From IMG/VR virus record IMGVR_UViG_3300025132_000163, positions 1-32,089 of that record: a stretch of DNA of 32,089 nt; one strand, given 5' to 3'. Shown here in pieces: positions 10,313 to 32,089 of this stretch. Position 1 is the stretch's first letter; every line of letters starts with the position of its first letter. A program made the position numbers and the translations under genes. This DNA is from a virus. Under the pieces are notes generated by a model, which was given only the letters and a program-made list of their open reading frames with translations, was not told the origin of the DNA and made no database searches.

Positions 10313-10567
10313 ATGGCAGATTACGAACACAAAGCTGGTAATGGTTCTATATTCAAGAATCAATACAAAGAAAACGAAAACCAACCTGACTATAAAGGTT
10401 CAATCAAATTACAGGATGGTGCTGACAAGGAATTGGCAGCATGGGTTAAGCAAGATAAAAATGGAAATTCATTTTTGTCATTGTCAATTAGCGACCCTTA
10501 TATTAAAAAAGATGAACCACAACAGTCCACTCAAAGCAATGCAAAAGTGGATGATTTACCTTTTTAA
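10313..10567 (+). CDS. Small SSB-like / DUF736-like protein with SSB-type C-terminal tail
   Basis: 84 residues. The N-terminal pattern GNGSIFKN ... PDYKGSIKL ... AAWVKQDKNGNSFLSLSI resembles the small OB-like DUF736 group (from memory). The protein then has a linker rich in Gln and Ser and ends in K-V-D-D-L-P-F, the acidic, Phe-terminated tip by which bacterial SSB recruits partner proteins. It directly follows the annealase gene and ends at a terminator. I infer a phage single-strand-binding or annealase cofactor that can dock host SSB-binding enzymes. The overlapping +2-frame reading (10341-10574) is a shadow. Confidence 0.6.
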   Translation: MADYEHKAGNGSIFKNQYKENENQPDYKGSIKLQDGADKELAAWVKQDKNGNSFLSLSISDPYIKKDEPQQSTQSNAKVDDLPF

Positions 10568-10589: not shown

Positions 10590-10615
10590 GGCAGCCATTT
10601 GGTTGCCTTTTTTTT
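10590..10615 (+). terminator. Rho-independent terminator after ERF/SSB-like operon
   Basis: GGCAGCC (10590-10596), loop ATTT, GGTTGCC (10601-10607; one G-T pair), then eight T (10608-10615). On the opposite strand the same hairpin is preceded by A8 and followed by CTCTTTCCCTTTTT, so it could also stop the minus-strand RNA proposed at 10641-10750. Confidence 0.85.
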
Positions 10616-10640
10616 GTTTTACAGTTAAATGCTAAAATCA

Positions 10641-10750
10641 ATTCTAAGCTGTCTTAGGTTCGATTTAAGCGACTTTGGCTGTTCTGGCATATACTAGCAT
10701 CAAAAATCTGAGAAAGTGCATTAAACGAAAATCCCCCCTGTAAATATTTT
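10641..10750 (-). ncRNA. Candidate small RNA, copy A of a two-copy inverted element
   Basis: Read on the - strand this aligns without gaps to 29813-29922 (+) at about 76 of 110 positions. It starts with TATTTACAG, like the phage promoter edges, then GGGGGG, and carries ATGCCAGAA, AAAGTCGCTTA and a hairpin CTAAG-ACAG-CTTAG. No reading frame is shared by the two copies. The gap 10616-10820 holds nothing else apart from the promoter for 10821. A DNA role (origin, packaging or recombination site) is not excluded. Confidence 0.55.
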
Positions 10751-10797
10751 TTGTTTTTTAAAGTATTTTTTTAAATGAAAAAATTATTATATATTAG
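10742..10797 (+). promoter_or_regulatory. Promoter region before 10821
   Basis: AAATATTTTTTG (10742-10753) and AAAGTATTT (10760-10768) resemble the upstream block of the other class-I promoters; TATATTAG (10790-10797) is a variant -7 box 31 bases before the ATG at 10821. It abuts the minus-strand start of the small-RNA candidate, so transcription may be divergent. Confidence 0.4.
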
Positions 10798-10820: not shown

Positions 10821-10988
10821 ATGGCAGAAAACAAACACAATGCAATAGAAAATCAAGTCATGGACTATTGCAGAAAAAAAATCGAAAAAGAAAAAGAAGT
10901 TTTAAATTATATTGAAACTCACAAATCAATAATAAAAGAGCTTGGTTATGAAATCAAAAAAAAAGAATTACCTGACATATCTAAATGA
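10821..10988 (+). CDS. Small charged protein, hypothetical
   Basis: 55 residues (MAENKHNAIENQVMDYC ... KKKELPDISK), rich in Lys and Glu and mostly helical. It begins at ATGGCA after an A/T leader, as do most genes here. It is the first gene after the promoter at 10790 and overlaps the next frame. Function unknown; its position ahead of recombination genes suggests an early accessory or host-takeover role (inference). Confidence 0.6.
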   Translation: MAENKHNAIENQVMDYCRKKIEKEKEVLNYIETHKSIIKELGYEIKKKELPDISK

Positions 10989-29183: not shown

Positions 29184-29641
29184 GCAAACCTAAAAAAAGT
29201 TTCAAGGATTCAACAGTTGGTAAATTATTATTTGGTGCTGCAAGTATTGTGTCGCCACAATTAGGTGCTGTATTAAATGGTGTTGTTTCACCTAAAGATG
29301 CAATTGCTGAAATAACAAAAGCAAAAATACCAAATGAAGATAAAATAAAATTACAACAATTAATTTTTGAGCAACAAAATAAAGAGATGGAAGAAATCTC
29401 TAATAGATGGTTAGCTGATGCAAATAGTGACTCCTGGCTTTCTAAAAATGTCAGACCATTGGTTTTAGTTTGGTGTATTGTTGTTTTTAGTTTTGCTGGA
29501 TTATTAGACAGCATTGACAATGTGCCATTTCACATAAATGAAGTTTGGAATGATACTTTTGAAAAGGTTATGATGGCTGTTGTGTTAGCATACTTTGGTG
29601 GTAGAACAACCGAAAAAGCAACAAGCATGTTTAAAAAATAA
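29180..29641 (+). CDS. Holin candidate, GTA_holin_3TM-like
   Basis: 153 residues. The second half has the family pattern EEISNRWLADANSDSWLSKNVRPLVLVWCIVVFSFAGLLDSI, then KVMMAVVLAYFGGRTTEKATSMF, with membrane helices at ~97-116 and ~130-145. An N-terminal amphipathic segment (KLLFGAASIVSPQLGAVLNGVV) may be a third. It should form the pore releasing the M15 endolysin. TAATGG overlap with the next gene. Confidence 0.75.
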   Translation: MSKPKKSFKDSTVGKLLFGAASIVSPQLGAVLNGVVSPKDAIAEITKAKIPNEDKIKLQQLIFEQQNKEMEEISNRWLADANSDSWLSKNVRPLVLVWCIVVFSFAGLLDSIDNVPFHINEVWNDTFEKVMMAVVLAYFGGRTTEKATSMFKK

Positions 29642-29772
29642 TGGCAAAAAGAGCTGGGTATATTCACTATATAAAACCAAAAAAAAAGCGACCTGGTGTT
29701 CATTCTAAAAATGCAAGTAAAGGTCAAAATGGTTACAAAAAAAAGTATGTTGGTCAAGGCAAAAAGCACTAA
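29641..29772 (+). CDS. Tiny basic phage protein with K-K-R-P-G-V-H motif
   Basis: 43 residues, about one third Lys/Arg (MAKRAGYIHYIKPKKKRPGVHSKNASKGQNGYKKKYVGQGKKH, split here as start, RPGVH core and YVGQG end). Comparable short proteins with an RPG-H-K-K/S core and a C-terminal Y-x-G-Q-G are frequent in marine and Bacteroidota phages. Function unknown. It is the last gene before the 224-base gap. Confidence 0.6.
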   Translation: MAKRAGYIHYIKPKKKRPGVHSKNASKGQNGYKKKYVGQGKKH

Positions 29773-29812
29773 TTATTGATTTTAGATAATTAAAAAATTC
29801 TTTAAAATTTAA

Positions 29813-29922
29813 AAAAAATTTACAGAGGGAAATCTATCCTAATGGATTTTCAGAGATTTTGAATGTTAGTAATTGCCAGAAACACTAAAGTTGCTTAGAA
29901 GCCACCTAAATGCCTTTAAAAT
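29813..29922 (+). ncRNA. Candidate small RNA, copy B of a two-copy inverted element
   Basis: Aligns to the - strand of 10641-10750 at about 76 of 110 positions without gaps. It begins AAATTTACAG then AGGGAAATC; contains nested pairing AAATCT...AGATTT around ATCC-TAAT-GGAT, then TTGCCAGAA, AAAGTTGCTTAG and CCTAAATGCCTTTA. The ATG present (29832) meets a stop after six codons, so no peptide is conserved. The rest of the gap 29773-29996 is A/T-rich and shows only the promoter box for the fibre gene. Confidence 0.55.
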
Positions 29923-29973
29923 GGATATTGTAATTTTGTACAAAAACGATAAAAAAGGCAAAAAAATAAACAT

Positions 29974-29981
29974 TATTTTTG
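29974..29981 (+). promoter_or_regulatory. TAnnTTTG promoter-like box before fibre gene
   Basis: TATTTTTG followed by TAATAAAAT, 23 bases before the ATG at 29997; close copy of the tape-measure box at 4893. Confidence 0.5.
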
Positions 29982-29996
29982 TAATAAAATAATTCT

Positions 29997-32089
29997 ATGG
30001 GTACTACATTAACTGGCAAAAGAGTTCAAAATACTTACGATTCACTTTTAAAATTATCGGACAATGACAACCTAACTGGTGTCGCAAAAATAGTGGGTGA
30101 TGGCTTAGGAAACAACTCACCAATTTATTTAAGCACAACCCAAGTTGGGATTGGTGTGACACCCAGTTTTGAGTTTCATACCAACTCACATGCCAAGATT
30201 GGTGGTAATTTAATTGTTGGTGGTAATCTAACAGTTGATGGTACAACTACAATTGTTGATTCGACAGTTGTTGCTATTGGTGACAACATGATTGAATTAG
30301 CAAAAGATAATGTTGCTAATGTAAAAGATATTGGATGGTATGGCACAATTAATTCAAGTGGTGAAAAATATGTTGGAATGTTTTATGATGCATCAGATGG
30401 CATTACAGTACCAACATTTAGAATTGGATTAGGCACATCTGAGCCAGGTTCGACAATGACAATAACTACAAAAGGCAAATTAGTTATTGGTGCATTAGAT
30501 GCAACCACAGGTGTTTTTAGCGGTCAAGTAACGATACCAGCTACACCAGTTTCAAGTACAGATGCAGCTAGTAAGGGTTATGTTGATGCACAAATAACAG
30601 CTCAAGATTTAGATATAGCTGGTGATAGTGGAACAGGTGCGGTTGATTTAGATTCACAAACATTTACTATTGCTGGTGGCACTAATGTAACAACATCTGT
30701 AAGTGGTCAAACAGTTACAATAAACTCAACAGGTAGTATAGATGGTAGCGGAACAGCTAATGATATTGTCATGTGGCAAGATTCTGACACTTTAACTGAT
30801 GCACCTATTGCTATTTCTGGTAATAATGCAACTTTTGCTGGTAATATAAGTGTAGCCACGAATGTTAATGTTGAGGCAAGTAGTGGTTATGGTTTTTTAG
30901 AGGTTGGTGGGCCGAGTGGTGGTTATATAGATTTAAAAAAGCCATTTAGTGATGATTATGATTTAAGATTAATAACCGCTACAGATAGTGAAATAACAGC
31001 ATCAGGTATTTTAAAATTAAATGCTAGTAATACACTTAATTTAACATTAAATGGTGCTAATGCAACCTTTGCTGGTAGTGTTACTGCAAATTCTTTAACA
31101 GTAGATGATATAACCATCGATGGTAGCACTATATCAGACAGTAGCGCTTTAACAATAAGTAGTGGTGATGATATTACAATAGATGCCGACTCTGATATTA
31201 ACTTAGATGCTAATGGTGCAGATATAAGATTTAAAGATAACGGAACTGCTTTTGTTGAATTTAATTCATCTACTGGAACAACTTTTTCAGGTAATATTGC
31301 AACAACAGCAGATAAAAGAATATCAGTAGGCACTTGGGATAATTCTGCTTTCACAGGTGGTAATGCTTATGGTTTTAGTGTTACATCATCATTACCATTA
31401 TTACATTTAACTGAAAGTGACCAAACAAACAAAAAAGGTTATGTTGGATTATCGGGTGGTAGTATGTATGTTGGTGGGTTAATATCAAACTTATATTTAC
31501 AATCAGGTGCAAGTGGTACAACAGCACTAACTATTGATTCATCACAAAATGCAACTTTTGCAGGTAGTGTTACCGCAAGTTCTTTTATAAAATCTGGCGG
31601 CACATCATCACAATATTTAATGGCTGATGGTAGTGTTAGTACAGGTGGTTTTGTTGATGGTAGTGGTACTGCAAATGATGTGGCAATGTGGTCGGATAGT
31701 GATACATTAACAGACGCACCTATTGCTATAAGTGGCAATAATGCAACTTTTGCAGGGAATGTAACAATAGGTGATAATAGTGCTAGTGAAATATTTTTAG
31801 CATTTAATTCTTCATCAACAGATTTTGCTTTAGGTGCTAATGGCAGTAATTTTATGATTGGCACAAGCTCTGATTTAGATACTGGTAATTTAATAACTTT
31901 ATCAGGTGCAAATGGTCGATTAGGAATCGGAACAACATCGCCAATAGTACCAGTTCACATTGTTGGTACTGCTGTAAATAATCCCTCTAATGGTAATGGG
32001 GGTTATGAAGTAATGCAGGTATTTGATGATACCTCTTATGCAACTGGAGTAGGTGGTGGAATTGGTTTAGGTGGAAAATTTAATTCAAG
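29997..32089 (+). CDS. Tail fibre, N-terminal part (runs off right window edge)
   Basis: 697 complete codons, open to the window end. The N-terminus (MGTTLTGKRVQNTYDSLLKLSDNDNL then GNNSPIYLSTTQVGIG) is a virion-attachment segment seen in fibres of marine phages. It is followed by beta repeats such as SATFAGSVTANSL, a DAASKGYVDAQI segment (phage fibre repeat), and two copies of a 36-residue module (30741-30848 and 31656-31763). Near the right edge GRLGIGTTSP repeats begin and continue in frame type into bases 1-2019. Joined, the fibre would be about 1370 residues ending in an S74 chaperone. It determines host recognition. Confidence 0.88.
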   Translation, partial: MGTTLTGKRVQNTYDSLLKLSDNDNLTGVAKIVGDGLGNNSPIYLSTTQVGIGVTPSFEFHTNSHAKIGGNLIVGGNLTVDGTTTIVDSTVVAIGDNMIELAKDNVANVKDIGWYGTINSSGEKYVGMFYDASDGITVPTFRIGLGTSEPGSTMTITTKGKLVIGALDATTGVFSGQVTIPATPVSSTDAASKGYVDAQITAQDLDIAGDSGTGAVDLDSQTFTIAGGTNVTTSVSGQTVTINSTGSIDGSGTANDIVMWQDSDTLTDAPIAISGNNATFAGNISVATNVNVEASSGYGFLEVGGPSGGYIDLKKPFSDDYDLRLITATDSEITASGILKLNASNTLNLTLNGANATFAGSVTANSLTVDDITIDGSTISDSSALTISSGDDITIDADSDINLDANGADIRFKDNGTAFVEFNSSTGTTFSGNIATTADKRISVGTWDNSAFTGGNAYGFSVTSSLPLLHLTESDQTNKKGYVGLSGGSMYVGGLISNLYLQSGASGTTALTIDSSQNATFAGSVTASSFIKSGGTSSQYLMADGSVSTGGFVDGSGTANDVAMWSDSDTLTDAPIAISGNNATFAGNVTIGDNSASEIFLAFNSSSTDFALGANGSNFMIGTSSDLDTGNLITLSGANGRLGIGTTSPIVPVHIVGTAVNNPSNGNGGYEVMQVFDDTSYATGVGGGIGLGGKFNS
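30741..30848 (+). repeat. 36-codon fibre repeat, copy 1
   Basis: Encodes DGSGTANDIVMWQDSDTL followed by TDAPIAISGNNATFAGNI; paired with 31656-31763. Synonymous differences are many while the protein is almost unchanged, so the duplication is old and under selection. Confidence 0.85.
31656..31763 (+). repeat. 36-codon fibre repeat, copy 2
   Basis: Encodes DGSGTANDVAMWSDSDTL followed by TDAPIAISGNNATFAGNV, differing from copy 1 at only four residues. Confidence 0.85.

Follow-up and report, generated by a model that had tools for sequence, protein, structure and literature searches.

The window, a virus record of 32,089 bp, carries plus-strand genes that include those for a tape measure protein, an Erf-like annealing protein, an ssb-like protein, an exonuclease VIII-like protein, a DnaD-like loader, a primase-helicase, terminase, portal, protease, capsid, endolysin and holin. 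With the gene set chosen from the list of open reading frames (ORFs), the two largest intergenic gaps measure 253 and 224 nt (the next are 135 and 125 nt), and each holds one copy of a repeat. This setting had been noticed from the letters alone in an earlier annotation (the sequence-only reading). The gap with copy A is bounded by the ssb-like gene (10313-10567) and a 55-codon gene at 10821, the one with copy B by a 43-codon gene (29641-29772) and a tail-fibre-like gene at 29997. The 43-codon gene codes for a small basic protein and stands directly after the portal gene in many relatives (such as L056, L061 and L077), so that this gene has moved. The tail-fibre-like ORFs at the window ends (1-2019 and 29997-32087) have internal repeats of 37-118 nt. 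The features of the two gaps are listed below. Column numbers refer to alignment A1, which comprises 15 elements and 152 columns and is gapless; the sequences were cut to equal length, which favours gaplessness.

10590..10615, plus strand: hairpin and T-run, terminator-like, at the end of the ssb-like gene (from the sequence; L047 has a similar hairpin without copy A)
10608..10752, minus strand: copy A, the whole homologous cassette (nhmmer E 2e-37 with a seed that included copy A; site empty in L047)
10625..10676, minus strand: conserved arm of copy A, A1 columns 77-128, shared with host gyrB upstream regions (alignment A1; host matches)
10677..10712, minus strand: 36-bp centre of copy A, between the inverted arms (spacing test)
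10713..10726, minus strand: left half of the inverted repeat of copy A, A1 columns 27-40, with its partner at 10663-10676 (spacing test, pair counts)
29812..29955, plus strand: copy B cassette (nhmmer E 1.4e-35 with a seed that included copy B; sites empty in L025, L046 and L047)
29837..29850, plus strand: left half of the inverted repeat of copy B, A1 columns 27-40, with its partner at 29887-29900 (pair counts)
29851..29886, plus strand: 36-bp centre of copy B (spacing test; the second-best spacing for this copy)
29887..29938, plus strand: conserved arm of copy B, A1 columns 77-128 (alignment A1; host matches)
29974..29981, plus strand: TATTTTTG, a TAnnTTTG-type promoter box of the fibre gene, downstream of copy B (similar box in L025 and L046)

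Aligned without gaps, 10641-10750 (minus strand) and 29813-29922 (plus strand) are identical at 75 of 110 positions, practically the figure of about 76 that had been reported. The next-best ungapped match of either copy within the window is 54/110. Identity near the random level would have spoken against the repeat according to the sequence-only reading; the extended local alignment scores 96, against a maximum of 44 among 2000 dinucleotide-shuffled pairs, and blastn within the window gives E 6e-16. A profile search, with a seed that included both copies, places the homology at 10608-10752 (minus) and 29812-29955 (plus). The TTTACAG edges are present at both copies. The reported hairpin at 10590-10607 also exists. 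It had been proposed as a possible stop for a minus-strand transcript of copy A; with eight T after it, it is best read as the plus-strand terminator of the ssb-like gene.

An 18-codon frame (MHFLRFLMLVYARTAKVA) runs through copy A at 10665-10721 (minus strand), and its 18 codons are kept in L044. Protein coding was rejected, since an ORF of this type is lost in copy B (which stops after six codons), L002 and L005 while the nucleotides are kept; the absence of a conserved frame had been described correctly. A transposable MITE was rejected as well, as matching TTTACAG/CTGTAAA ends were seen only in copy A of the window and in a near-identical contig. The same holds for an integration site, as TAAAGTNGCTTAAAACG is found in 0 of 395 Bacteroidota genomes.

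The pattern of the longest shared blocks occurs in 8 viral contigs. Four of these have it at the A position and three at the B position; the remaining one, L005, is another phage, with its element between terminase and the next gene. Among portal relatives, the genes on either side were mapped at 80 loci. The B site is empty in L025, L046 and L047, where the fibre gene stands behind its own promoter-like box, and the A site is empty in L047 as well. Each copy is therefore a cassette. Because the relatives that lack copy B keep the promoter-like box of the fibre gene, copy B is not needed as a leader of that gene. Matches in genome contigs L009-L020 and in the viral contig L021 were rejected, as their flanks are unlike those of the A/B family; the matches of L019 and L021, the only two of this set that were ORF-checked, each lie inside an ORF.

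Related elements are found in unrelated phages. A 17-nt core common to L005 and L007 occurs in 74 viral stretches (the same letters reversed: 9), and 61 of the 72 newly fetched core loci overlap no ORF of at least 60 aa. One group accounts for 38 of 75 core loci, with the core 27-30 bp past a gene of some 140 codons. In this group (L103, L141 and about 36 similar contigs), that gene is on the opposite strand and a variable hairpin lies upstream. Upon profile search, clear relatives are L104/L112, L005, L142, L156 and two copies in L154; these contigs came from the core search, which did not itself pick up the second L154 copy (E 7.8e-14). Among named phages, Tenacibaculum phage pT24 has two elements (a count that leaves out a third place at 58,968), and the crAss-like phage cr131_1 has one, beside a tmRNA call. 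In cr131_1 (L177, 1534-1897), this call is 6 nt behind the element match; permuted tmRNA, at less than the gathering score, is the best match that Rfam gives at this place. BLAST matches to LP65, Semele, a microvirus and a Shewanella phage (E 0.2-3) were excluded from membership. In Lactobacillus phage Semele (L178, about 1650), TGTTCCACGTGAAACA, a parS-like site, is close to a run of GCTTAAAACG repeats.

The conserved arm also occurs in host genomes, just upstream of gyrB. Two models were used: R1, built from 21 phage elements and including a hand-made helix, and a phage profile without the helix. The seed of the latter came from the core pattern, so its E-values are inflated at core-selected loci. 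Applied to 395 Bacteroidota genomes, R1 gave 9 matches at E <= 0.001, and five of these, among them five of the best six, adjoin gyrB (L187, L188, L189, L191 and L192). The gyrB genes were identified by NCBIfam with best E below 1e-200; the bit scores stay under the curated cut-offs since the loci contain only part of the gene. A second search covered 41 genomes from the family to which G240, one of the matched genomes, belongs; here, 13 of 15 matches at E <= 0.01 adjoin gyrB (the exceptions are L296 and L297). With one locus common to both searches, there are 17 distinct gyrB loci, and the element is on the strand opposite to gyrB in all 17. The genes on the other side of the first five loci differ (asnB twice, a histidine kinase, two without a family), so the element is linked to gyrB itself.

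The phage profile recovers these loci independently of the helix. In 1.06 Mb, it matched L187 (E 3.4e-7), L189 (1.7e-6), L191 (1.6e-5) and L188 (3.7e-5), followed at lower rank by L193 (5.6e-4), L190 (0.002), L194 (0.01) and L192 (0.011), the last one a gyrB locus; the reversed profile matched nothing at E <= 1 in the same 1.06 Mb. It matches 17/17 gyrB loci with E 6e-9 to 0.0015. The match to host DNA is about 50 bp long (profile columns 76-142 at most), and the arm AAAGT..CTTAAA(A)CG..AAA..CTTAAAT..ATTTT, also about 50 bp, occupies the same columns in copy A, copy B and the host gyrB loci. A 15-mer, TTTTAAGCSACTTTT, occurs at 50 places in 6 genomes; among 30 fetched loci with this 15-mer, those that score with the phage profile are five beside gyrB, from four genomes, and one other at E 0.1. 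The R1 matches away from gyrB are L190, L193, L194 and L195, and three of these also match the phage profile in the search that covered the 17 gyrB loci (L190, E 2.6e-4; L193, 7.5e-5; L194, 0.0014). L190 and L193 (1501-1617), both weak matches to the phage element, look like one shared non-gyrB locus in two genomes, between two genes. In an even draw of 61 genomes from the phylum, 32 had a GyrB match at E <= 1e-60, and 30 loci were fetched. R1 matches only two of these at E < 0.05 (L196, which is the L188 locus, and L200), so the gyrB element is confined to part of the phylum.

Two inverted arms, about 36 bp apart, are a feature of the A/B family and of some others. Mean arm complementarity is best at spacing 36 both in the A/B family and in the named phages as a set (31 hand-picked representatives were compared in groups and 29 in a pool; not used were L108, L109, L118, L125 and L170, none of which overlaps an ORF of 60 aa). 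For 17 loci chosen by the core alone, the mean is again best at 36 (6.12 of 16; the 95% level of shuffles is 5.65), and six of these loci form one group (L102, L103, L116, L128, L129, L163) that prefers 37-38. For single elements, the spacing is 36 in pT24 (79,984) and cr131, and 38 in the second pT24 copy; copy B has a complementarity of 9 at spacing 36 and of 10 at spacing 26. The five profile-related families as a group have best spacings of 15 and 67, with 36 among the best in L104 only. In the host gyrB set, the dyad spacing is 42-43, as opposed to 36 in the phage A/B family. Thus, only the arm is common to phage and host.

Conserved columns and A/T tracts of the phage elements recur every 9.5-10 bp. 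For conservation, the peak is at 9.4-9.5 bp and there is hardly any power at 10.5 (p only 0.06 under a stricter block-and-gap shuffle), and the A/T power at 10.5 is 3.5, compared with a 95% null level of 2.1. For the host arm (17 loci), the A/T period peaks at 10.0 bp, a strength reached in 0 of 2000 column permutations, which ignore blockiness; its A/T power at 10.5 is 11.8.

We consider it close to an even call that both copies act via DNA gyrase or DNA supercoiling, as elements of double-stranded DNA about 130-145 bp long, with gyrase binding as the predicted part. A narrower proposal is possible, and we make it more hesitantly: Bacteroidota phages may carry host gyrB control DNA as a movable gyrase-recruiting site, in this way copying a gyrase-level sensor. 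The starting point is the phased arm common to phages and hosts, which in hosts lies upstream of gyrB. This arm would be bound by gyrase or, less likely, by a gyrB regulator. In the host, binding would feed back on gyrB and so control the gyrase level. In the phage, gyrase would be drawn to the phage genome, or the next gene or promoters would be coupled to supercoiling, a role that may be likened to gyrase recruitment by the strong gyrase site (SGS) of phage Mu.

Gyrase had been considered before the host gyrB result, because its motif has a 36-bp centre and phased arms. The Topo-Seq motif of E. coli gyrase has a 36-bp centre, two arms of 47 bp and a period of 10.75 bp (PMC6379681). Its centre, its flanking arms and its helical alternation of A/T and G/C may have counterparts in the element, where the A/B family has a centre of equal length and the period is 9.5-10 bp. 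One GyrA C-terminal domain wraps 48 bp (PMC12393610), which is similar to the arm length. The Mu SGS and the element are both intergenic phage DNA with phased A/T tracts and TTAAAACG-like steps (TTTTTTAAAACGCG, ATTTTTAAACCGG, TATTTAACGG). In the Mu SGS, the right arm is the important one (PMC10052514); the element likewise has one shared arm. The two differ in that the Mu SGS is a single central copy, whereas the element, only a candidate gyrase site, has one or two copies and inverted arms. By inspection, the distances of the A/T tracts from the cut in the Mu SGS differ from those from the dyad in the element. Furthermore, it is the element, unlike the Mu SGS, that is shared with host DNA upstream of gyrB. 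Because its period and A/T-tract positions fit E. coli and Mu only loosely, we refrain from classing the element as a strong gyrase site, even though it would work like one. In supercoiling-dependent control of topoisomerase genes (PMC4770202), the control DNA is beside the topoisomerase gene, as it is here; that system concerns topoisomerase I, whereas the element is upstream of Bacteroidota gyrB and is carried by phages. A full-text literature search returned, in the titles and abstract openings among the matches listed, no such element in Bacteroidota phages or upstream of gyrB.

Some results weigh against gyrase as the partner: the phage and host deviations in period and dyad spacing, the block-and-gap p of 0.06, the other best spacings in the profile-related families and in six of the core-chosen loci, the tract positions unlike those of Mu, the matches away from gyrB (L190, L193, L194), the low count in the even draw, the parallel orientation of copy B and cr131, and the covariation described below. 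Another protein could also bind at gyrB. The arm would then be an operator for a host DNA-binding gyrB regulator other than gyrase, and the phages would use this operator for their own genes or for titration. We regard this as unlikely, though it accounts for several observations. The host elements are at a regulatory distance from gyrB, with the core 142-224 nt from the ATG in the loci measured. The consensus of the 17 host loci (L187 and L285-L295 among them) has a conserved palindrome, TTATCAACA(T/A)TTGTTAATTA, which separates the arm from the promoter side of gyrB and may bind DnaA or a regulator. By naive ORF calls, both flanking genes are opposite to the element in 7 of 15 phage loci (L005, L132, L136, L138, L141, L156, L173), as at gyrB. 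Copy A, both L154 copies and L005 are upstream of, and opposite to, the next gene, which is again the gyrB geometry. The copy B and cr131 elements are parallel to their neighbouring genes; given this orientation of copy B, it is not certain that the element acts purely at promoters. Against an operator, the palindrome is absent from copies A and B, a phased arm of 50 bp is long for a simple operator, and copies in unrelated phages, including a crAss-like phage, would require a widely conserved factor.

The sequence-only reading had preferred a small-RNA family. Its family stands, as a real, non-coding, two-copy family that is also found in other viruses; its RNA is the weaker reading, as a DNA site fits better. 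In such a small RNA, the two arms would pair into a stem that closes a 36-nt loop, a short hairpin would follow the core, and an A/U hairpin would stand at the 3' end; this structured RNA of the phage would act in trans, and a divergent relative of it would lie upstream of host gyrB. We consider this improbable. When a helix was drawn manually from L002 and L044, 92.6% of its cells were paired in the A/B family and its covariation score was 0.181; one shuffle in 500 reached each of these values, and the best slid version had 62% paired. Over 21 elements, the helix has 6 pairs with changes on both sides (1/500 shuffles) and 13 such cells (0/500). Such covariation is easier to explain by RNA than by DNA, but the helix was drawn from the same sequences, and the 3 both-side-change pairs of the A/B family were reached in 315/500 shuffles. 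RNAalifold predicts 0 consensus pairs for 15 elements and a weak 9-pair fold (-1.73 kcal/mol) for the A/B family. An arm duplex test over 38 elements gave a mean z of -0.28, and an RNA stem common to every family was rejected.

The short hairpin behind the core gives a better fold when its halves are matched than when they are re-dealt (-2.47 vs about -1.79, reached in 1 to 4 of 400; 3 to 8 of 400 for 30 loci; the test was run on 30 and 28 elements). However, a control segment 18 nt on was also low (9/400), and the hairpin is not conserved at gyrB, where re-dealt halves were as good or better in 237/300. A box, AATTTT?(G/AC), is found at -85..-45 in 9 of 25 elements, compared with 0-4 of 24-25 in other windows of the same strand and 3/25 on the other strand; this pattern was chosen after examples were seen. 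The canonical TAnnTTTG is found upstream of 0/25. A search of Rfam 15 gave no match at gathering score and sub-threshold matches only, in agreement with the claim that no named RNA family matches. RNA anti-CRISPRs (Racrs; PMC10651486) are, like the element, small units carried by phages; the core of the element, unlike Racrs, is nearly constant across unrelated phages. A guide-RNA mimic was dropped because the layout is alike by eye only. The fold, covariation, arm-spacing and phasing results do not by themselves settle DNA versus RNA. It is the A/T-phased arm at gyrB, together with the missing consensus pairs, that makes the duplicated DNA site, named as an alternative by the sequence-only reading, the better fit.

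A replication origin or a DnaA-controlled site copied by phages is very improbable. The host spacer has TTATCAACA, which resembles a DnaA box, and the repeats are iteron-like. However, TTATCAACA is absent from copies A and B, and over 20 sampled stretches there is no GC-skew switch at the G240 element. An origin was rejected because a distance of about 0.4 Mb or more separates dnaA and the element in 3/3 genomes.

We thus return to gyrase and supercoiling: the A/B element more likely steers the host supercoiling machinery than makes a small RNA. If true, the one or two copies per phage genome would attract gyrase or let phage promoters read supercoiling. Few strong gyrase sites are named in the gyrase-site papers considered (Mu, a Mu-like prophage, pSC101 and pBR322). 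It should also be noted, as a caution, that two-copy intergenic repeats of phages need not be small RNAs. With a family that reaches across unrelated phages and is linked by its sequence to gyrB, both the control of gyrB in Bacteroidota and the hold of phages on host supercoiling would become directly testable.
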